A stretch of DNA of 45,548 nt. Origin: Candidatus Saccharimonadota bacterium (GTDB lineage Bacteria > Patescibacteriota > Saccharimonadia > Saccharimonadales > Saccharimonadaceae). A program made the translations under genes and the position numbers. The notes below the pieces were generated by a model that saw only the letters and a list, made by a program, of their open reading frames with translations, had not been told where the DNA came from and searched no databases. Where the stretch lies: the NCBI GenBank assembly GCA_017941835.1, contig JAGAVP010000002.1:1-45548 (forward strand), given 5' to 3'. Positions 3,243 to 16,243 of this stretch are shown piece after piece; positions within the stretch are counted from its first letter, which is position 1; every line of letters starts with the position of its first letter.

Positions 3243-3518
3243 ATGGCAAAAGCAAAAACGGAAAGGAAAAAAGCAAAAGCAATTACTTTTTCAAAAAAGC
3301 TTATTGTAAAAGATATAACGCTTGAGGCTAAAATACTCGGAATTGCCAGTGGATCGGCAGAGATATTTGCGGAGAAAGTCGCAGAAAAAGTCGCTAAGTG
3401 GGCAGAAAAACGAGAAAGCGTGACAGAAGATGATATTAATATGCAGATTGCAAAAGAAATTAACAGATATAATAAGGACCTTGCTTTCGTCTACAAAAAT
3501 CGTGGTAAAATTATCTAA
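3243..3518 (+). CDS. Small basic helical protein, unknown; possibly ATP-cone-like
   Basis: 91 residues, Lys-rich N-terminus (MAKAKTERKKAKAI), then an apparently helical body ending in KDLAFVYKNRGKII. The arrangement of a beta hairpin followed by helices and a terminal xVYxNRGK motif faintly recalls an ATP-cone or similar nucleotide-binding regulatory fold, but I cannot confirm this. It begins 1 nt after the upstream membrane protein and ends 12 nt before the oxidoreductase, so all three are probably made from one mRNA. The context offers no clear role. Confidence 0.75.
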   Translation: MAKAKTERKKAKAITFSKKLIVKDITLEAKILGIASGSAEIFAEKVAEKVAKWAEKRESVTEDDINMQIAKEINRYNKDLAFVYKNRGKII

Positions 3519-5117: not shown

Positions 5118-6422
5118 CTACCAGACGGCGCCGGAATTGCTACAATTTGAGACCGAGCCATTCTCGGCACGCTTACAGTTATTGGTTACCCAGTAGCTTT
5201 TGTTAGTCTCATTGGCGCCATCAAGAAAGATGGCAGATTCTGGATACGGATAGTAAAGGTCAACTAGTTCTACGCGAGCCTCAACCCGGCGATAAAGATC
5301 GTTAGCGCGGCCAGTAGAATCAATAGCAGCTTGGACGCCAGTTAGTTTGGTGTACTCTGAGCATTTATTATCTGTGCTATTCCAATTCTTACAGAGCGAA
5401 ACAGAAATGTCCGTACTTGGGCGGTTATAAGGCAGGGAAACTTTGAGGAAGGTGGTGGCAGCAGCACGAGGAGTGCCACGGTAAGTTGGCGGAAGCATAA
5501 TCGTGGTAGTACAAGCATAACGCTCACCAGGCTTACAATTAGTAATAATGAGGTCATTGCTATACTTGTCGGAATGATCAAGAACGGTGTCAGCGGAGAC
5601 GATGTTTTTGTCTGTGCCAGATTTTGGCTCAAAAACTAGCATGGCGTGATCCGTGCCAGTGCTTCTAGCGTTGTTGACGCTAAGCTCGGCAACATTGAAA
5701 TACGGAACTCCATTTGCGGAGTCGGTCTGGAAAATTTCAAAAGTGACTACCGGTGGAGCATAGGTCTGACTATTGTCTTTTAGCATTGTGCTATTACTAT
5801 CAGAGCCAATCATGTAATTTGTAGTATTACTGCTGGCATTAACATCGGAATACCAACTAAACTCAATTGCATTGATATCGGTTAAATCTGCGGAGTGAAG
5901 CGGAATGATGCGAGTACTATCGGCGGCGGTAAGAGTAGTGAGGTAATCGTCAGTTTCTTCAGTGATTTTCACACAAGTGTAGGCCTGTTCCATATAGGAG
6001 GAGCTACCGTTGTCGGTCGTACTCTGAGTTTCCTGAATAATAGTGGAGTACTGGGTATCTTCTCCACCGTTTTCGCGGCCAAGGACACGGGCGACTACGT
6101 CGCAAGATTCGGTAGCAATGCCCTGTTCCATCTCGTAAATAATGCGCGGACAGGAAGCTTCACCGGCATTAGCATTAGCGGTATAGCCCTGCGAGATACA
6201 ATCGTGGTATTTCAAGACGGCGATTTTAGCGTCTTCTATGCCGGCCAAGGCAGAGTCGTAAGCAGATTTATAGAGGTCAGCATTCGCAGTAGAAATAGAT
6301 TCATTAATGACAATTCGCACGAAGCTCATAGTAATGATGCCAAACATGAGTGTAAGGAAGATGACGGCGTAGATAGAGACGGCGCCACTTTTAAATGAGG
6401 TAAATCTATTTTTTCTATTCAT
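5118..6422 (-). CDS. PilX/GspK-like minor pilin (tip-type pseudopilin)
   Basis: 434 residues, the last gene of the pilin operon. N-terminus: short basic leader, then SG-AVSIYAVIFLTLMFG, a hydrophobic helix (about 13-36) continuing into an amphipathic helix (NADLYKSAYDSALAGIEDAK), the pattern of PilX/GspK. If the prepilin peptidase cleaves after G13, residue +5 is Tyr rather than the Glu that is nearly universal in pilins; GspK of type II secretion also lacks Glu5, consistent with a subunit capping the fibre tip. The globular part is beta-rich with several Cys (for example CKPGERYACTTT and NNCKRAENGSVSNC) and probably disulfides. It overlaps the PilW-like gene by 8 nt and has an AGGAG ribosome-binding site. 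Confidence 0.8.
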   Translation of the reverse strand: MNRKNRFTSFKSGAVSIYAVIFLTLMFGIITMSFVRIVINESISTANADLYKSAYDSALAGIEDAKIAVLKYHDCISQGYTANANAGEASCPRIIYEMEQGIATESCDVVARVLGRENGGEDTQYSTIIQETQSTTDNGSSSYMEQAYTCVKITEETDDYLTTLTAADSTRIIPLHSADLTDINAIEFSWYSDVNASSNTTNYMIGSDSNSTMLKDNSQTYAPPVVTFEIFQTDSANGVPYFNVAELSVNNARSTGTDHAMLVFEPKSGTDKNIVSADTVLDHSDKYSNDLIITNCKPGERYACTTTIMLPPTYRGTPRAAATTFLKVSLPYNRPSTDISVSLCKNWNSTDNKCSEYTKLTGVQAAIDSTGRANDLYRRVEARVELVDLYYPYPESAIFLDGANETNKSYWVTNNCKRAENGSVSNCSNSGAVW

Positions 6423-7218
6423 CGGTTTCTCCTGTCGCCTCAGCGGCGAAATTATATTTGTTTAATGCGCAATAGGTGAATTCGTCAAATTTGGCATCCT
6501 TTGAGGCTTTACAGTATTCTCCGCTGGAGAGAATATCAACGTCTCCTTGGAGGGTAGCAAGGACAAAGGTACCAGCGTAGTAGGCCTGGCCAGAATAGGC
6601 ATGGCGGGCAGGGTGGAAAATGCGCAAGTCATAAATGGCAAGGTCGGCTTCAGCAGTGCTTAATAGTTCTGCTGGTTCGGAAATGTTATATTCCGGAGAG
6701 ACGACAGATGAATTATACTCGTAAGTGCCACCGTTAACATTAGTACTACAAAGCGCTCCGCCCGGATCAAAGGCGCGGACTAAGCGATAGTTTTTATTGC
6801 CGTTAATAACAGCACGGAAGCTTTCCGTCTTGTCCTTTTTGAAGACGTAGCCGGTATTCCAAATGTAGGAATAAAGACCACTGCAGAAAATACCGTTAGT
6901 TGGGACGGTCTGGCCGTCGCCAAAGTCGTGTTCATACTGACGATAAATATATTTGAAGGCAGCATCCTTTTCGCAAGCCTCACGCGAAGTGTCATTTACT
7001 AGAGAACATTTAGCACTAGCACTAACAATGGTCGAGGCATGGATATGACGGGTAATATCTTCAATAATTTCTTGAGAAGTGGAGTTGACTGCTTTAACGG
7101 TCAAGGTCTTCTGGTAGATGGAGGACATCTGAATAATCAGAAATGTAGTCATGAGAAGTAAAATGGAAATGAAGGCCATGGAAAGCGTTGTCTCGATGAT
7201 AGTGAAACCTTTTTTCAT
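6415..7218 (-). CDS. PilW/GspJ-like minor pilin
   Basis: 267 residues with a classic class III signal: MKKG-FTIIETTLSM, cleaved after G4, N-methylated Phe +1 and Glu +5, followed by a hydrophobic helix to about residue 29. The C-terminal domain is large and contains about eight Cys, so it is likely disulfide-stabilised outside the cell. Its position between the PilV-like and PilX-like genes matches PilW/GspJ. ATG overlaps the end of the upstream gene by 4 nt, with GGAG upstream, implying translational coupling. The subfamily name is inferred from gene order more than from sequence. Confidence 0.8.
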   Translation of the reverse strand: MKKGFTIIETTLSMAFISILLLMTTFLIIQMSSIYQKTLTVKAVNSTSQEIIEDITRHIHASTIVSASAKCSLVNDTSREACEKDAAFKYIYRQYEHDFGDGQTVPTNGIFCSGLYSYIWNTGYVFKKDKTESFRAVINGNKNYRLVRAFDPGGALCSTNVNGGTYEYNSSVVSPEYNISEPAELLSTAEADLAIYDLRIFHPARHAYSGQAYYAGTFVLATLQGDVDILSSGEYCKASKDAKFDEFTYCALNKYNFAAEATGETDE

Positions 7219-8027
7219 TGTGCATTCTCCACTATTTCTGGGTTATAAAGACGAATAATCGTACCGATGGTAGTAGGAGCGCTTTGGTTTGGACCGGTCC
7301 AGCAAGCGCGGATATGGAAATCATAGAACTCTGGGGTAGAGTTGATAGTGCTAGCATTCAAGGTCTTGTCCCTTACAGCAATAATATATATACCCTCAGC
7401 GGCTGCAACATAGCGATAGGTATTTGTTTCGTATAGTTGTTCATCGGAATTGTTACCTGAGTTCGTATTTGCCACTTTATTGGAATAGATTACGCGCGGA
7501 TAGACAGATGCGGCGGTGAAGAGATTACGGTTGTTCTTGGTTGATACAACTATCCTATCTAGGTCAATCGGGCTGCCGGTGAGAGATAAGTCCTGCGGAT
7601 CAATCTCCCGAGTATTCATAATGAAAGCAACGAGACTAGATTTGAAAATGCTTTTATCGCCACCATTGTAGATTTCGTCGCAGGTGTTGACATTGAGGTC
7701 TGGAAGCTGATCTGGATTATTAGCCATGCCAGGAGTTGCGGTGGCAGTCGTGTCGGAGGAAAGTTTGAGCCAAAGATTGCGATACTGCTGCTTACTGACG
7801 ACTAGTTCCCTTTCCAGAGTAAAGGCGTTATGGATAAAGCGTAAGGATTCCGCTTGAGCATCTATCTCGCTACGAGTCTGAGCAACTTCCATGGCTGCCT
7901 CGGCGGTTCTTAGACCGGAACTCATAATGTTTAGGGCAAGGACAGACACGAGCGCAAAAACTGCAATAGCGAATACGACTTCTACTAGCGTATCACCACG
8001 TTTTAGCTGTGTCAATTTTAGTTGCAT
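7215..8027 (-). CDS. PilV/GspI-like minor pilin
   Basis: 270 residues. The leader MQLKLTQLKRG is followed by DTLVEVVFAIAVFALVSV: probable cleavage after G11, Asp at +1 (unusual; normally Phe or Met) and Glu at +5. The hydrophobic N-terminal helix runs on into a long amphipathic helix (AAMEVAQTRSEIDAQAESLR), as in PilV/GspI. The C-terminal domain has few Cys (TCDEIY, RACWTG). It overlaps both neighbours (10 nt upstream, 4 nt downstream) and has a GGAGG site 7 nt before ATG. Confidence 0.8.
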   Translation of the reverse strand: MQLKLTQLKRGDTLVEVVFAIAVFALVSVLALNIMSSGLRTAEAAMEVAQTRSEIDAQAESLRFIHNAFTLERELVVSKQQYRNLWLKLSSDTTATATPGMANNPDQLPDLNVNTCDEIYNGGDKSIFKSSLVAFIMNTREIDPQDLSLTGSPIDLDRIVVSTKNNRNLFTAASVYPRVIYSNKVANTNSGNNSDEQLYETNTYRYVAAAEGIYIIAVRDKTLNASTINSTPEFYDFHIRACWTGPNQSAPTTIGTIIRLYNPEIVENAQ

Positions 8028-8977
8028 TTGTTTTCCTCCGAGTCGGTTTCTAGAATTTCTATGGCGGAAGAATCGTGGCCATCGGCTTTGATACGAATAC
8101 TATTCTTGCGGCTAATGCCGATAAGGAAATCATTGGAGTTAACACAGAGGTCTATTTCGCTAGTGGCAAAAGACTTGCTCGGATCATTTTCAGTATTCAA
8201 GTAATCTGCCATAGCGTATCCGTCAGAAGTGGCTGCGTTCACGACCGTGGAGAGATCATTGGAAGGACGATTTTGGAACTTAGACATGAAAGCTTCAAAG
8301 TCTAATTCCTTGTTTAGCAGATAGGTGTGAACGGCGCCAGATACTGGAGAACGGACAATTAGGATTTCTCCTTTGAATCTATTCCCTTTTGTATCTTCTA
8401 GCCAAGCATCCCAGGTCGGATAATAATTATAATCTGAGCCAGCCGGCTCCAGTGAGTAATTGCCAAGAGTGCCAACTGGAACATAGGACATAACGTCGGC
8501 GTAGACGGATTTTAGATTAGTGATGACATTGTCGCCGGTAATACTACCCCGAAATTCCACCGCGCGGCCGATTACGTCATAGACACGGTAGGCGGCATTT
8601 TCGTTAGAGTCCTCTCCGAAGGAAATGAGCTTGCCATAGATGGCACAGCCAGAGCGACCAGCATAGCCATAGCCATCGTCGTCTGCGTTGCCAGAATTTG
8701 GGAGGGCGGACGGGTCGGTGAGTGCGGCGGCTTGGCCGGCGAGCGTGCAATATTTGTTCTGATCGGAAATGGAGCCGGTGCGGCCGTTTTGAACGTTTTC
8801 CACTTGGGAATAAACCATGCGAAGAGAGTCAGCGAAGGCTTTAGTCGTATCGGAGTAGCGTTCGCGGCTGATTCTGGAGGCGATAGTAGCCATGAAGGCA
8901 ATCAACATCGCAGAAGTAATCGCAAGGACGAATACTACCTCAATGATTGTGAAACCATTTTTTGTTTGATGTCTCAT
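8018..8977 (-). CDS. FimU/GspH-like minor pilin
   Basis: 319 residues. MRHQTKNG-FTIIEVVFVLAIT carries a canonical prepilin cleavage site (after G8) with Phe +1 and Glu +5 and a hydrophobic helix to about residue 31, followed by an amphipathic helix. The C-terminal domain is beta-rich with Cys pairs (NKYCTLAG, RSGCAIYG, IDLCVNS, EENKCN). It is the first pilin after the large secreted protein (9 nt gap) and has AGGAG 6 nt before ATG. Place in the operon suggests the FimU/GspH role, joining the tip complex to the main fibre. Confidence 0.8.
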   Translation of the reverse strand: MRHQTKNGFTIIEVVFVLAITSAMLIAFMATIASRISRERYSDTTKAFADSLRMVYSQVENVQNGRTGSISDQNKYCTLAGQAAALTDPSALPNSGNADDDGYGYAGRSGCAIYGKLISFGEDSNENAAYRVYDVIGRAVEFRGSITGDNVITNLKSVYADVMSYVPVGTLGNYSLEPAGSDYNYYPTWDAWLEDTKGNRFKGEILIVRSPVSGAVHTYLLNKELDFEAFMSKFQNRPSNDLSTVVNAATSDGYAMADYLNTENDPSKSFATSEIDLCVNSNDFLIGISRKNSIRIKADGHDSSAIEILETDSEENKCN

Positions 8978-8986
8978 GCGACTCTC

Positions 8987-11900
8987 CTAGTACCTCGGCG
9001 CTAGCTCGCGAGTATAAGTTACGTTGGCCTGAGAGAAACGCTGTGCCTGTGAATAGGCCCAGAAGAGTACGTCCGGACGAAGGTTGATAATTTCTGCTGG
9101 CTGAATGGAACCATCATCGGTGAGGTTGAAGGTAATAGGATTACCACCGGCTGGATTGCCGCTACCTACGCCACCGTTGGCGCCAGAATTTCTGACTAGA
9201 GTGAGGGAATTTGCAAAAATCGGGCCGTTGATGATGAGCTGATTAGCACAAGCGTTTGCACTAAAGCCATTAGAATTATGAGTTAAACCATTACAGGTAT
9301 TAATATTGCCGTTAGTAATAAGCCAGGCATCAATTTGAGTAACGTTGTCTTTAATAACGATACCGCCGTCGGCAATAATGAGAACTTGAGGTAGGCTATA
9401 GATGTTGGTGTAGTAGTCGCTGTTTCTCTGAGTGAGAACGAGGTTTGGATTGCTGCCGCAAGTCCCATTACCAGTACAAATATCTGTATCGATGGTAAGC
9501 GTGCCGTCAACATGGATAATAAGAGCATTGCTGGCATAGTTTCTGGTCGTTTGCTCGCTCTGTGCATTAATAGCACTCTTAGTCTGACGGATGACGGAGT
9601 CGGAGAGCTGGGTGTTGGCTAGAGCACCGTGGCTGATACGATAAAGCTCGCTGGTACTGATGTTGGCCTGGTCTGGATAAATATAGGTGGCGCCGTTGTC
9701 TAGCTGGTTAATCCCGTGTGTAGCAGAGAGATAGCGCGAACGGATGCGTTCAAGCAGAGTAGCAGCAGAATCTTCAATCATGGAGTTGCCGGCAAAATAC
9801 TTACCGCCCGCCTCGCTAGCACAATCATCGTTGGCGATAGTCATACGAGAAAGCTCACAGAACGATTTGCCTGGGGAAGTACCACCTTGGAGACCGAGCA
9901 TTCTATTATTGTAGCCACCGTAGTAGCCGAGGCCAGCAGCGGATGACATACCGACGACGTTGGCTTTGGCGGAAATGATGTATTCCTCCCAGGAGCCAAA
10001 GTAGCCAGTTGGATCACTTGGGTCGCCAAGATTGGCGCCGACACGCTTGACGGTGGTGGAAGTCTTAATATTGCCTTTGGTATAGAAATTACCATTCCAG
10101 ACTTGGAAATTTGGTTTCTTGGCAATGGTACGACAGGAGATATTAGAAATACGCCATCCGGAGATATTGCTCATACCGGAAACGACCTGAGTATCTGGCT
10201 GACTGTGAGAATCAGAAGTAGAAATACCCACAGCGACACAGTACTTGGAGCCGACTGGGTAGACGTCTGGAACAACACGAGTGACAGAACCAGATGAATA
10301 GGTCTTGCCGCCATAGCGACCTTCTTCGTTGAGATAGCCACCAGCGCCATGTTCTTCCCAAATAGTATTACAGCCAGAAATCATGCCAAGACTACTATAG
10401 TAGGAGCATGGATCGCTGCCGCCAGCATTACTAGAACCGGTAGCCGGACTGAGATTGCTATTTGCATCAACGACAAATTCAACAGCACGGATGAATCCAG
10501 GAACAACAGTAGCATAGGCTTCGCCTGGGCGAACCTCACTAACTACGCGAGGGATTATAGATGCAGTGAAGAGCGAGGAGACGGTTTCGCCGAGATAGAT
10601 AACATCACCTTCCTGAATGGTAGAGGTAGTAGCAGTACGATAGGAGTATGGGACATTGACGGTAGCGGTGGAAGAGCGAGTACCGAGTTGCTGCTGGCCA
10701 GTGGAATAATCTTTTGGTGGTTTATAGTGAGATTTACCTGGGTTATCGTGCGCATGAGTATCTTTGCTGCTATTGTAACTCCCCCAACATGGGCCAGTAT
10801 TACATCTAGCACAGCCGCAGCTACCACAATCGTTTGCGTGCCACTTTTCGGATGTAGTACAATGACCATCGGAACCATACCCAGTTTCGCAGACAGAACA
10901 GCTTCTACACTCATCGCATCCACAATCACATCCCCAATAAGGGTAGCTGCGCCAGTTGTTTGCACTACAACCACTATAGTCGCAATCTCCGAGTTCGGAC
11001 GTACCATGGGTGGCTGTATCGCCAGACCATTTTTTAATTAGACCCCAGTCGTTGACGCCGGCACCAAGGGCTGATTGAAGAGTTTGATATGGTGCGCTCT
11101 GGACGTTTGCGTTATATTCAATAAGTGTGTTCATTTCTTTGTCTTCATACTCCGGGTGACCATCCTCGCCCTGCGGCGGATTTGCGTCTTGCCAGGTACA
11201 GGTGCCATTGCAAAAGCCGGTTTCATTATGGCGATAACGCTGCCAAGCGGTATCATAACTATAGGTAATAGTCTGGGAGAAGCTACTGCCAGCATCACTC
11301 ATATTGCCGCCATTTTGCGAGATTGCGCCACAACCGCCGACGCCCACACCTGGAATCTGATAACCGTGGCCACCACCAATAGTGAAGGCTCCAAAGTCAA
11401 AGATAGGACAGTTATAGCTATCGGCGTCTTCGCCGCGCTCGCTTGGGGAATAATAGAGAAATCTATAATCGCTCGCGAGATTGTCGCCATCAATACTAGC
11501 AAGTTCTGGTGCTGCGCCACCGATTGATGAACTGTGAGGATCCTGAAGAACGTGTCTGGTACCGGTATCACGGATAACGTGCTCATCATATCCAAAGAGA
11601 TAATTATTATTTGGACTAGCAGAGACATTAAACCATACTTCATTAACAGCTGAGCCATAGGCAATAGCATTGCCGCCTGGGTAAATCGCCCATGGAGAGG
11701 ACGGATTATTATCTGCGCTACCACCAACTGCACCGACACCCCAACAATAATACATTGAAAACCTAACTGTATCGCCTGGACGAGCCCAGACAAGCCCAGT
11801 CCAGCCGGTGCCTTTAGTAAAGTTATTAACTTGAATCTGACCCTCGGTCCAGCCGGCGTGTGATCCAACGTGGCAACTTGGAACTGGTGGAGGGGTAGGC

Positions 11901-12595
11901 TCATTGTCACAGTTGACTTCACAGAGAAGCTTTTTTACTTCAGTATCATCAAGGGTTTTAAGATAATTTTGGAGGCCACCAAAAGCGGCGAGCTGGTCTA
12001 GAGTAAGACCTGGAAGCAAGCCTGCTGCAACCATTTGATTGTAAAGCTCTATAACTTGGCCATAGTCCATAGAGCCATAGTCACGCTTAGAATAGGCAGC
12101 TGCCCACATCTGATCTACCGTGCCGTCGGAGCGAGTAATGCCGCCAAAAGGAATGTAAGTTAGAAGCTGACCTTTTGCTACATAAGTCCTAACACCATCA
12201 AGATAGACATAGCCGTCGTTATCGGCGTAGATAGCGTTGTAGTAATATTTTGAGCCTGGGGCTGCCTGGCCAGTACTAATATCCTCTGTTGGGGTATAGC
12301 TAAATCCGGAGCAGCTAGCGTTTGTACAGAGGCTAGGAACATGAATAGTAGTACCACCTTCCGGCACCGTAATATAATCTACACCAGTAGCACCGGAGTA
12401 GACAACACTGTTACAACTATTGTTTGGACATTTTGAACCACCGCCGCCCATCTCGTCGTCCTGAGTAGAAGAATCGTAGCCGCTCGCACCACCAGTATTG
12501 TCAGCATTTACTGGCTCAACTTGAGCGATGCTAGATATGAAAACTGTTCCAAAAAGGGCGAGCGAAGCGATAAGAATTTTGGTGGATTTATTCAT
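8987..12595 (-). CDS. Large secreted Cys-rich protein, candidate pilus-tip adhesin
   Basis: 1202 residues from ATG 12595, chosen over the upstream in-frame start at 12643 because GGAGG lies 8 nt before it and a normal Sec signal peptide begins there (MNKSTKILIASLALFGTVFI, cleavage near VNA-DN). The mature protein is Gly/Ser/Asn/Tyr-rich. A Cys-dense module lies near the middle (bases 10785-10940), with 12 Cys in about 50 residues (CDCGCDECRSCSVC and onward). The last 200 residues are probably beta-helical or layered (ALIIHVDGTLTIDTD, QVLIIADGGIVIKDN, QLIINGPIFANSLTL) and end in YTRELAPRY. No membrane anchor is visible. Its place in a minor-pilin operon parallels PilY1, although I see no sequence similarity to PilY1. 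It overlaps the upstream gene by 8 nt. Confidence 0.82.
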   Translation of the reverse strand: MNKSTKILIASLALFGTVFISSIAQVEPVNADNTGGASGYDSSTQDDEMGGGGSKCPNNSCNSVVYSGATGVDYITVPEGGTTIHVPSLCTNASCSGFSYTPTEDISTGQAAPGSKYYYNAIYADNDGYVYLDGVRTYVAKGQLLTYIPFGGITRSDGTVDQMWAAAYSKRDYGSMDYGQVIELYNQMVAAGLLPGLTLDQLAAFGGLQNYLKTLDDTEVKKLLCEVNCDNEPTPPPVPSCHVGSHAGWTEGQIQVNNFTKGTGWTGLVWARPGDTVRFSMYYCWGVGAVGGSADNNPSSPWAIYPGGNAIAYGSAVNEVWFNVSASPNNNYLFGYDEHVIRDTGTRHVLQDPHSSSIGGAAPELASIDGDNLASDYRFLYYSPSERGEDADSYNCPIFDFGAFTIGGGHGYQIPGVGVGGCGAISQNGGNMSDAGSSFSQTITYSYDTAWQRYRHNETGFCNGTCTWQDANPPQGEDGHPEYEDKEMNTLIEYNANVQSAPYQTLQSALGAGVNDWGLIKKWSGDTATHGTSELGDCDYSGCSANNWRSYPYWGCDCGCDECRSCSVCETGYGSDGHCTTSEKWHANDCGSCGCARCNTGPCWGSYNSSKDTHAHDNPGKSHYKPPKDYSTGQQQLGTRSSTATVNVPYSYRTATTSTIQEGDVIYLGETVSSLFTASIIPRVVSEVRPGEAYATVVPGFIRAVEFVVDANSNLSPATGSSNAGGSDPCSYYSSLGMISGCNTIWEEHGAGGYLNEEGRYGGKTYSSGSVTRVVPDVYPVGSKYCVAVGISTSDSHSQPDTQVVSGMSNISGWRISNISCRTIAKKPNFQVWNGNFYTKGNIKTSTTVKRVGANLGDPSDPTGYFGSWEEYIISAKANVVGMSSAAGLGYYGGYNNRMLGLQGGTSPGKSFCELSRMTIANDDCASEAGGKYFAGNSMIEDSAATLLERIRSRYLSATHGINQLDNGATYIYPDQANISTSELYRISHGALANTQLSDSVIRQTKSAINAQSEQTTRNYASNALIIHVDGTLTIDTDICTGNGTCGSNPNLVLTQRNSDYYTNIYSLPQVLIIADGGIVIKDNVTQIDAWLITNGNINTCNGLTHNSNGFSANACANQLIINGPIFANSLTLVRNSGANGGVGSGNPAGGNPITFNLTDDGSIQPAEIINLRPDVLFWAYSQAQRFSQANVTYTRELAPRY

Positions 12596-13289
12596 TGTTA
12601 TTTTCCTCCGCTTCAGTGTTTGTTTCACTCTGCGTTTCCTCATCTGCTGTACCAGCTACTGCATCTTTTTCCAGGTCCACGTCAAGCTCTTTTAATAAAT
12701 CGCCATAGAAGTCACGTTTTTCCGTATTTCCTTCCTGGTTGTACATGTAGAAGAGCTCGTGATAAGCGTAGAGCTTCTCGGTATTAGTATCTGCTTCATC
12801 AGCAAGACGGAGAGCTTCAGCGATGGCGGTTTCTTTTGCGCCGGCCTGATAGGCAATACGGGCGCGCACTGCATAAGCGGCAAAGATGAGGTCTTGATTC
12901 TGGTTCAAGTCTCCTAAATCTTTGATTAGATCGTTTAGATAGACGATGGCGTTTTCGTAGCCATTTTCATCTCCAGAATAAAGTACTTTGTAGGTACGTT
13001 TTTCGATTTCTTGCATGTTGGCTGGGATTACTTCATCCGTGCGAGAGCCTTTTGGACGACTAGCAAGGTTTGCAATAAGGGCTACTGTCAAAACAATAAT
13101 AATCGCTGCGGCGATGCAGCTAAAAATAAGCGTGAGAGTCTTACGAGAGATACGAGAGCGCTTTTTCTCTACTTTTTCTTGATCTTTTTTGCCACCCTTG
13201 ACGTTCACAAAATATTCAGGTGTGGCCTTACTGCCAATATTGCCAGATTGAAAAACTGGGGTATTGGGGCGTTGACCTTCTTTGTCCAT
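12588..13289 (-). CDS. Membrane-anchored protein with TPR-like helical domain, first gene of pilin operon
   Basis: 233 residues: a charged cytoplasmic N-terminus of about 50 residues, one membrane helix (TLIFSCIAAAIIIVLTVALI, about 52-75), then an all-helical extracytoplasmic part with two to three TPR-like hairpins (AYAVRARIAYQAGAKETAIA; KLYAYHELFYMYNQEGNTEK) and an acidic tail. It may be an assembly or scaffolding factor for the pilus, inferred only from position. ATG 13289 is 6 nt after the extended -10 TGCTAAAAT, so the operon mRNA is probably leaderless here. Confidence 0.8.
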   Translation of the reverse strand: MDKEGQRPNTPVFQSGNIGSKATPEYFVNVKGGKKDQEKVEKKRSRISRKTLTLIFSCIAAAIIIVLTVALIANLASRPKGSRTDEVIPANMQEIEKRTYKVLYSGDENGYENAIVYLNDLIKDLGDLNQNQDLIFAAYAVRARIAYQAGAKETAIAEALRLADEADTNTEKLYAYHELFYMYNQEGNTEKRDFYGDLLKELDVDLEKDAVAGTADEETQSETNTEAEENNNE

Positions 13290-13331: not shown

Positions 13332-14102
13332 TTAGAGTTTTTTGGTGTGGTCTAGGTAGTAGGTCTTTAGCTTATCATTGTATTTATAGACAATTTCCCA
13401 TTTGGCGAGATTGTCAGCGGTAGGCTCTTCAATTTCTCCAAAAACGCCGAGGAGGTGTTCGTCGTCCCAGTTCAGGCCAGAGTAGAGATTTTGAGTGTCG
13501 GCAGTCCCACTATAAAGCCCGGTGATAATTTTGATTTCTCGATCAGACTTATAGGCTTTATCGACGACTTGACAAATCATTTCTAGTGGGCGAGCAGCAG
13601 AGCAGGCGGAATAAGTATTAAGTTCGTAGGCATCACCAATTTTTTCGTATGCGCCGCTAGTAGATTCATAGTAATATTTTTCTTGCAACGAGCTGCCATC
13701 ATTAAATAAAAGATTATAAACTTCTTTGAGCTCATTGAAGCCAATTTTATCATAGCCTTTGCGGACAGCATAATCTATAACGATTTCCTCTTTCGTATCG
13801 TAACTTAGGTCTTTGGCATTCACGGTGCCGTCGCTAAATACCCCCAAATTATAATCTAGGCAGGCGCTCGTTCCGCGGAAATAACGGGCGGCAAGAGTCG
13901 CGACCTGTTCGTCGTCGATAGAAATCTCATCCATTTTGATGTTATTAAAATAATAGCCAATGCAACCTGCAACAATCACAAGGATAACGACAATGATTAA
14001 AACTCCGAGAACGAGCTTATTAGTCGTAAAGAAACGAGTACGCTTCCTGGTACGCTTCTCGGATTTTTTATCGGGTTTTTTCTGAGTTTTCTTTTTGCTC
14101 AT
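13332..14102 (-). CDS. Membrane-anchored extracytoplasmic protein, unknown
   Basis: 256 residues. A very basic cytoplasmic N-terminus (about 30 residues, mostly Lys/Arg) precedes a single membrane helix (LVLGVLIIVVILVIVAGC). The VAGC end matches a lipobox, but the long N-region is unusual for a lipoprotein, so a plain membrane anchor is at least as likely. The outer domain (about 200 residues) contains Cys in SACLDYN, YSACSAAR and MICQVV that could form disulfides. I do not recognise the fold. It is transcribed alone from an extended -10 placed 6 nt before ATG. Confidence 0.75.
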   Translation of the reverse strand: MSKKKTQKKPDKKSEKRTRKRTRFFTTNKLVLGVLIIVVILVIVAGCIGYYFNNIKMDEISIDDEQVATLAARYFRGTSACLDYNLGVFSDGTVNAKDLSYDTKEEIVIDYAVRKGYDKIGFNELKEVYNLLFNDGSSLQEKYYYESTSGAYEKIGDAYELNTYSACSAARPLEMICQVVDKAYKSDREIKIITGLYSGTADTQNLYSGLNWDDEHLLGVFGEIEEPTADNLAKWEIVYKYNDKLKTYYLDHTKKL

Positions 14103-15240: not shown

Positions 15241-16188
15241 TTAGGCCTCGATCAGTTCAGTACCGTTCACGTCGAAATCAGCAAGGGCAGATTTTTTGAT
15301 GGCTGGGTCTTCGTAAGTATTCCAGTAATAAGTCTTAGTGGCGGCGGAGTAGCCACCAGTGTAAACGGTTTTCTCGAAATCGCCACTAGCCATAGCGGCG
15401 GCGCCGTCAATCATTGCAACACCAGTCAAAGTATGGAAGAGACGAGAAACGTTTTCTTCTTCGGTAGATTTTGCAGGATAGTGGGTGTTAAGATAGGCAA
15501 CGCGGACGAAGCGAGACGGGGAATAGTAATCGCCTGGGAGACCGCGCATGAGAGAGCCAGAACCAAAGGCAGTCATTTCAGCTTTACCCCAAGTGACTTT
15601 TTCTGGCTGTGGGCTAGTGAGGTTCATGTAGTTTCTTAGGTTTTCTTTATGCCATGCATAACCTGGCTGGTTGGTGAGAACATCGACGTCGTTATGGAAA
15701 ATTTCCATGCCTTTGTCGGTATATTCAACTACGATGCTGCGGGTTTTGTCGCCGATAATCCAGTGGAGAAGAGAAACTGGATATTTTTCGTTAATTGGTT
15801 TAGCGATGATAGCAACGTTTTTTAGCGCACCTTCAACTTCGTCAACGGTAGAAAAATTCATAGCAACCCAAAGTGGAAATTCGTAAGCGGAAATATTGGT
15901 CTTTCCTTCTACAGCGTCCTTTTCATACTGAGCGTAGCCTGGGAAATTAAGTCCAGCGATGGCGAGGCCGGCTTCGTTGCCACAGTCAAAGTAAAGCGGA
16001 GTATTTTCTTCAATAATACCCATACCAATTAGAGCATATTTTGGGATAAGTTCGCCGAGAAAGGCGGAATGATAATGATAGCCTTTTGGGGTAACAACAA
16101 TTTTCTGACCGTAGCCCACAGACCAGTCAAGGTTCCTGCCAAAAAACATATTGCCGTTTGCGTCATTAAAACGAATTCCTGTACACAT
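15241..16188 (-). CDS. Choloylglycine hydrolase family enzyme (bile salt hydrolase / penicillin V acylase type)
   Basis: 315 residues, the family's normal length. An in-frame start lies upstream at 16227, but ATG 16188 is right: AAGGAG lies 9 nt before it, and it exposes the catalytic Cys at position 2 (MCTGIRF) after Met removal. The Ntn-hydrolase residues are all present: Cys2, Arg18 and Asp21 (FFGRNLDW), Asn81 (AGLNFPG), Asn173 (LTNQP) and Arg226 (PSRFVR), matching bile salt hydrolase C2/R18/D21/N82/N175/R228. It cleaves an amide bond in a conjugated bile salt, penicillin V, N-acyl homoserine lactone or fatty-acid amide; the substrate cannot be read from sequence. No signal peptide, so cytoplasmic. 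It is followed 1 nt later by the MscS gene. Confidence 0.92.
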   Translation of the reverse strand: MCTGIRFNDANGNMFFGRNLDWSVGYGQKIVVTPKGYHYHSAFLGELIPKYALIGMGIIEENTPLYFDCGNEAGLAIAGLNFPGYAQYEKDAVEGKTNISAYEFPLWVAMNFSTVDEVEGALKNVAIIAKPINEKYPVSLLHWIIGDKTRSIVVEYTDKGMEIFHNDVDVLTNQPGYAWHKENLRNYMNLTSPQPEKVTWGKAEMTAFGSGSLMRGLPGDYYSPSRFVRVAYLNTHYPAKSTEEENVSRLFHTLTGVAMIDGAAAMASGDFEKTVYTGGYSAATKTYYWNTYEDPAIKKSALADFDVNGTELIEA

Positions 16189-16215
16189 TTTGTTTTCTCC
16201 TTTAATGTTTTCCCC

Positions 16216-16224
16216 ATTATAGCA
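16216..16224 (-). promoter_or_regulatory. Extended -10 of the hydrolase-mscS operon
   Basis: Minus strand TGC-TATAAT, 27 nt before ATG 16188. Unlike most promoters here it leaves a real leader containing AAGGAG. A weak -35 (TTGAGT, 18 nt upstream) overlaps the T run of the upstream terminator. Confidence 0.7.
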
Positions 16225-16243
16225 CAAGCTTTATACGGTACTC

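Follow-up and report, generated by a model that had tools for sequence, protein, structure and literature searches.

A predicted beta-solenoid protein encoded beside the T4P-1 minor pilins of Saccharibacteria as a candidate pilus-tip component

A minus-strand operon for four pilin-like proteins and a large secreted protein

The DNA analysed here (the window; 45,548 nt), contig C18, belongs to a Saccharibacteria-type genome of 634 kb (G000). In a genome scan with its large secreted protein, BIG, the nearest named relatives were Candidatus Saccharibacteria genomes, mainly from the ruminant gut, and the source bacterium is tiny and probably host-dependent. The ORF list places six genes in a minus-strand run from 13289 to 5118, namely a small TM/TPR-type gene (TM233), BIG, and four pilin-like genes, H, I, J and K (Table 1). 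Adjacent genes overlap by 4–10 nt or are separated by a gap of 9 nt, with the TM233 stop overlapping the BIG start by 8 nt, and the run is a tightly overlapping operon. Promoter and terminator scans scored at chance level. A preliminary description of this DNA had given the range to the minor-pilin set and BIG; both lie within it, and so does the TM/TPR-type gene at its upstream end.

Table 1. Genes of the operon, listed from its upstream end (arrows mark the prepilin site)
Gene	Position	Strand	Product
TM233	12588..13289	(-)	233 aa; one N-terminal transmembrane segment
BIG	8987..12595	(-)	1202 aa from coupled start; 1218 aa from upstream ATG at 12643
H	8018..8977	(-)	319 aa; FimU/GspH position; Glu5; motif KNG↓FTIIE
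I	7215..8027	(-)	270 aa; PilV/GspI position; Glu5; motif KRG↓DTLVE
J	6415..7218	(-)	267 aa; PilW/GspJ position; Glu5; motif KKG↓FTIIE
K	5118..6422	(-)	434 aa; PilX/GspK position, large tip-type minor pilin; Tyr5; motif KSG↓AVSIY

The window copy of TM233 had no Pfam match. TPR matches to Pfam were obtained for its equivalents in two related loci (L063 and L060), and in other genera the gene preceding BIG is, where readable, a small TM/TPR protein. In part of the window's genus, a TM/TPR-type gene lies between BIG and H and not before BIG (L045, 12489-12938; L036, 2802-3254; L046, 12581-12994). The candidate N256 (13332-14102) was rejected as a member of the set because it is inverted in two relatives (L032 and L033).

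Elsewhere in the window, 15241-16227 (-) encodes a member of the choloylglycine hydrolase family (PF02275, E 3.9e-95), a bile-salt-hydrolase-like or penicillin-V-acylase-like enzyme of a gut-type Saccharibacterium. A large surface-polysaccharide cluster occupies 18999-43986, with an O-antigen-ligase-like Wzy, sugar transferases, dTDP-rhamnose genes, an ABC-2 exporter and a WsaF-like glycosyltransferase of 1188 aa with a HAD domain. A 554-aa protein with a lamin-tail domain (PF00932; 863-2527, -) is probably another surface protein, and a 91-aa Lys-rich protein at 3243-3518 (+) falls in no Pfam family and has a helix pattern that is histone-like by eye only.

The prepilin sites of H, I and J follow the pattern G↓(F/D)T..E with Glu5 present. 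The residue at position 5 of K is Tyr, because its motif reads as given in Table 1, and in agreement with the preliminary description, which had noted the missing Glu5, this position is aromatic (Tyr or Phe) in 13/13 genus homologues and is never Glu in the wider order set. K itself was found in 252/295 genomes of the order. The window pilins match generic pilin models. We compared them by hhalign with E. coli GspG-K and PpdA-C/YgdB, references whose classes are separated by the N-terminal helix alone. H was closest to GspG/GspH (90/89%, N-terminal helix only), I matched GspJ (93.5%) and GspI (87%), and J was closest to GspJ (94.7%), a resolution too coarse to tell H from G or I from J; for K, no class of E. 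coli pseudopilin was favoured. The profile searches named in the preliminary description gave matches on the sub-threshold side: outgroup homologues of K reached E 0.0026 with PilX_N (PF14341), below the cut-off, an outgroup homologue scored 0.046 with the GspK model, also sub-threshold, and the outgroup homologue of I in L072 scored 1.1e-6 with TIGR02523 (type_IV_pilV), again below the cut-off. Family models are therefore only suggestive of the pilin roles.

BIG and K were also folded. The AlphaFold2 model of K (mean pLDDT 60.5) has a long N-terminal helix followed by weak jelly-roll matches, with Z up to 6.0, and no GspK, PilX or beta-propeller row stood among the Foldseek matches listed for this poor model. 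The structural expectation held for the C-terminus of BIG, predicted to be a solenoid (see below); for K, the poor model speaks neither for nor against the GspK fold.

The H/I/J/K roles were assigned from the order of the genes, the distribution of Glu5 and how large K is. On this basis, H-I-J-K is supported as a complete set of minor pilins of the FimU-PilV-PilW-PilX / GspH-I-J-K kind, its K being of the tip type. The likeness to GspH-I-J-K of type II secretion lies in the gene order, in Glu5 being present in H, I and J but not in K, and in K being the largest; in contrast, the similarity is confined to the N-terminal helix, and we noticed no T2SS secretin among the genes of the machinery locus.

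Conservation of the pilus locus and its correspondence to T4P-1

The genome scan with BIG yielded 17 named loci. The order BIG-H-I-J-K is intact in 12 of these and BIG-I-J-K is found in one more, which goes beyond chance. Four consecutive prepilin-like genes in conserved order, as claimed in the preliminary description, are thus present in the window and in 12 named loci, and they recur in the wider order too. To describe the wider locus, we read 20 stretches around K from other genera and families. Outside the window's genus, the recurrent arrangement is [TM-TPR]-BIG-PilM-N-O-x-PilB-PilT-PilC-PilA-PilD-H-I-J-K, where x stands for a small gene; the machinery operon thus starts with BIG. Linkage was also counted in the 67 genomes outside the window's genus with both K and BIG coordinates among the best-scoring matches. 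BIG lies within 18 kb of K in 60 of the 67, and in these 60 genomes it is on the same strand in 58 and upstream in 58, among the matches listed.

In locus L057, the small gene between PilO and PilB (8422-8739; weak Pfam match) and the PilO-like gene (8739-9638) encode EF-hand-like acidic stretches, hinting at possible calcium binding in the pilus machine.

The window's own genome is arranged differently, splitting machinery and minor pilins over contigs. It has one PilC locus, with PilM-N-O-B-T-C on a separate contig without pilins, and PilD and a major-type pilin lie on a third. BIG remains beside H-I-J-K, apart from the machinery genes, and searches by family and by region found no second minor-pilin set. 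Other genomes carry more than one copy: G110 has two K-BIG pairs, and G176 has two HIJK sets and two BIG genes. K and BIG duplicate together. K-BIG pairs are also found without machinery genes (L077 and L078), and BIG genes away from K occur in part of the window's genus (e.g. G001, G210, G281).

Encoding the minor pilins with PilM-N-O-B-T-C-A-D is an order-wide arrangement shared with the T4P-1 loci of Nanosynbacter lyticus TM7x (TM7x_00415-00475) and Southlakia epibionticum (SEML1_0104-0116) (PMC12206443, PMC10633639). The window genes and the order-wide locus are of the T4P-1 type. The published T4P-1 set comprises PilM, N, O, B, T, C and D and five pilins, including PilV1, PilW1 and PilX1 (PMC12206443), so the minor-pilin set described here, which corresponds to these three, is not new. 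T4P-1 is essential in both strains, as are those of its minor pilins that were tested (PMC12206443, PMC10633639). A jelly-roll-like domain has been reported for PilX1 of TM7x (PMC12206443), and the weak jelly-roll matches of the K model would fit the view that K is PilX1, without proof.

BIG is absent from the published T4P inventory. Both published tag ranges contain 13 genes, the same as the count from PilM to K here; by this count, BIG seems to have fallen just beyond that inventory. Going by the order-wide gene order, the gene adjoining PilM1 in TM7x should be BIG. The main-text T4P inventory of the 2025 TM7x study names no large secreted protein, and the study names no adhesin for the essential T4P-1 (PMC12206443). 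A literature search for TM7x_00410, SEML1_0103 and their neighbours returned only the statement of the range starting at TM7x_00415, and in the literature searched no link between a solenoid or other large secreted protein and the T4P-1 locus was found.

Distribution, domain-wise conservation and predicted structure of BIG

BIG begins with MNKSTKILIASLALFGTVFISSIAQVEPVNA, read by eye as a Sec-type (type I) signal peptide, and has no prepilin motif. The layout continues with a variable N-terminal half, a Cys cluster, an Ig-like module, a beta-solenoid and a conserved C-terminal tail, ELAPRY. Its Cys-rich character, as first described, is borne out by 36 Cys in 1202 aa, with 14 at residues 538-603. 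BIG had no match to Pfam or NCBIfam at E up to 1, the PilY1 domain included, which agrees with the earlier remark that the linked protein is unlike PilY1. Searches against PDB sequences gave nothing usable, and no sequence similarity between BIG and ComZ was found.

Conservation is strongly uneven along the protein. Mean identity to the window copy is 0.15-0.18 over residues 1-250 and 0.09-0.23 over 450-650, and rises to 0.27-0.55 over 650-900 and 0.36-0.59 over 1050-1202; most same-genus matches span the C-terminal half only. The C-terminal domain is found in 253/295 genomes of the order and 283/302 genomes of the family. At the extreme C-terminus, most Saccharimonadales share the motif E-L-x-P-R-[YF], and W-x-E-V-x-P or a similar motif is frequent in the other classes.

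Relatives extend well beyond the order. In a phylum sample, 44 of 241 genomes had BIG-domain matches, 27 of them in other classes. Among 16 out-of-order regions, five have the match directly upstream of PilM (L085, L086, L090, L091, L093), as does L084, where the PilM coordinates come from a separate PilM search. For an independent test, PilM loci were drawn from other classes and families, 40 in all and regardless of BIG; in a few, little or no upstream sequence was usable. Of the 95 ORFs with 300 aa or more in these loci, seven match the BIG domain, and each of the seven lies immediately upstream of PilM. Many of the remaining PilM loci have a K-like pilin in that upstream place, and the order K-BIG-PilM occurs in L123 and probably in L110. 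Unlinked BIG paralogues also exist, within the genus as well as among other classes (L041, L044, L047, L080). BIG is not lineage-specific, with relatives upstream of PilM in other classes of Patescibacteria. The preliminary description had called the large protein lineage-specific; this applies to its N-terminal part only, and the C-terminal domain is order-wide.

The structure of mature BIG was predicted with AlphaFold2 from 17 sequences (add 30 for precursor numbering). Mean pLDDT was 57.6, with values of ~75-90 in the cores of an Ig-like module (model 602-795; precursor ~632-825) and a solenoid region (model 797-1144; precursor ~827-1174). In VIA-align, the solenoid aligned with ice-binding proteins of the FfIBP type (Z 11.0, rmsd 3.2, 173 residues) and with ComZ (PDB 6qvi; Z 8.9, rmsd 6.4 A, 211 residues), the latter above unrelated rows with Z <=8.3. 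Foldseek with the whole model gave no match below 1e-3, and Ig-like modules prevailed among its matches; for the C-terminus, the matches listed are solenoids, in a list limited by the Foldseek ranking that leaves room for another fold, such as the beta-propeller of PilY1. From the model and the structure alignment, the C-terminal fold is predicted with moderate confidence to be a beta-solenoid of the ice-binding type, in support of the beta-helical C-terminus that had been thought probable. The fold alone is no proof of a pilus function, because ComZ is one row among ice-binding solenoids.

A proposed pilus-tip complex and competing roles for BIG

The comparison system is PilY1 with FimU-PilV-PilW-PilX, known from Pseudomonas, Neisseria and Myxococcus (PMC7541494). 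PilY1 and BIG both have a type I signal peptide, a poorly conserved N-terminal half and a conserved C-terminal domain, and the gene for each is linked to four minor pilins, the last without Glu5. Myxococcus has several PilY1 clusters per genome, and duplicated K/BIG sets occur here. However, BIG has no Pfam match to the domain of PilY1, and for its own C-terminal domain a beta-solenoid and not a beta-propeller is predicted.

We consider that the genes probably encode the tip/priming complex of a retractile T4P-1-type pilus, with the solenoid protein BIG in the PilY1 position, where it would grip surfaces or hosts. Filament assembly would begin with H, I, J and K, the last of these occupying the very tip. 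BIG would be exported by Sec and would fold outside the membrane into the variable N-terminal region, the Ig-like module and the C-terminal beta-solenoid. The conserved solenoid and C-terminal tail may then dock on K or on other minor pilins, leaving the variable N-terminal half pointing outward, where it could grip surfaces or host cells (perhaps DNA) while PilT retraction pulls the cell in. If the PilY1/minor-pilin priming complex (PMC7541494) is taken as a guide, H-K and BIG would start and then cap T4P-1, with BIG outermost. Synteny, the linkage to K, joint duplication, PilM adjacency, the PilY1-like domain pattern, the predicted fold and the single PilC locus of G000, with no second minor-pilin set found, all point to such a tip complex and make it reasonably likely. 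Against it count the low mean pLDDT of the BIG and K models, the failure of K to match GspK or PilX structures, and the genomes of the genus in which BIG genes lie apart from K.

Host adhesion is one of several possible roles of T4P-1, because the pilus published as binding hosts in TM7x is T4P-2 and the essential T4P-1 is linked to twitching (PMC12206443). Host specificity is plausible, and is the least supported step of the model since the host-binding effect demonstrated in TM7x is that of T4P-2. More tentatively, and at somewhat less than even odds, the BIG relatives may form a Patescibacteria-wide family of secreted beta-solenoids beside PilM or minor pilins that is the functional counterpart of PilY1. 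Docking on K would be by their conserved C-terminal tail, which is E-L-x-P-R-Y/F in Saccharimonadales and often W-x-E-V-x-P in other groups, and the fast-diverging N-terminus, sometimes in several paralogues per genome, would set the surface or host that is gripped.

For the question of how ultrasmall epibionts recognise their hosts, a single order-wide gene beside PilM or the minor pilins provides a proposed tip component for T4P-1, and its expected location in two genetically tractable strains makes the question directly testable. A 2024 review had proposed knocking down predicted tip minor pilins to separate motility from attachment (PMC11665869). Because relatives throughout the phylum retain BIG beside pilus genes, it is a strong and testable candidate for the gripping part, whether of surfaces or of hosts, and if this is true, another fold can stand in the position of PilY1.

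Two rival roles for BIG are the strongest, namely DNA uptake in the manner of ComZ and a place in the envelope as part of the machine. ComZ of Thermus thermophilus, a DNA-binding protein with a proposed place at the pilus tip, likewise carries a large beta-solenoid, inserted there in a pilin fold whereas BIG is a separate secreted protein; its authors found the same ice-binding relatives for this solenoid (PMC6561018), and the alignment of the BIG solenoid with it would fit a tip receptor for DNA that feeds ComEC for nucleotide scavenging and transformation, not a host adhesin. As T4P-2 mutants of TM7x keep competence at the wild-type level (PMC12206443), T4P-1 is likely the uptake pilus. However, comEC is dispensable in Southlakia while most T4P genes are essential (PMC10633639), which rules out uptake as the pilus's main role, and a DNA receptor has no obvious need for a fast-diverging N-terminus or tandem paralogues. 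We regard this role as fairly unlikely.

The position of BIG before PilM, with relatives that are secreted proteins of various length beside machinery genes, could instead reflect a cell-wall port or anchor of the T4P-1 machine that stays on the cell. The TM/TPR partner gene just upstream of BIG would suit such a port, as would a machinery locus in which no secretin was noticed. Yet BIG parted from the machinery genes in the window's genus while remaining beside the minor pilins, K-BIG pairs exist without machinery genes, and a variable N-terminus suits an exposed tip better than a structural port, so that an envelope role appears unlikely. That BIG is an ordinary surface adhesin, placed near pilus genes for co-expression only while H-K work without it, would accommodate the unlinked paralogues and is very improbable, since co-expression hardly explains linkage to K in 60/67 genomes (among the matches listed), linkage to PilM across classes, or duplication of BIG jointly with K.

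Two further observations concern BIG-like genes in related genomes. Two or three BIG genes stand in tandem in several of them (G735:C7:88281-98907; G654:C3; G717:C36; G722:C52), possibly as alternative tip modules. In another genome of the same class, a solenoid-domain match (G403:C2:316141-316719) lies inside an open frame of 25,343 codons, a giant protein encoded 8 kb from a PilM gene.
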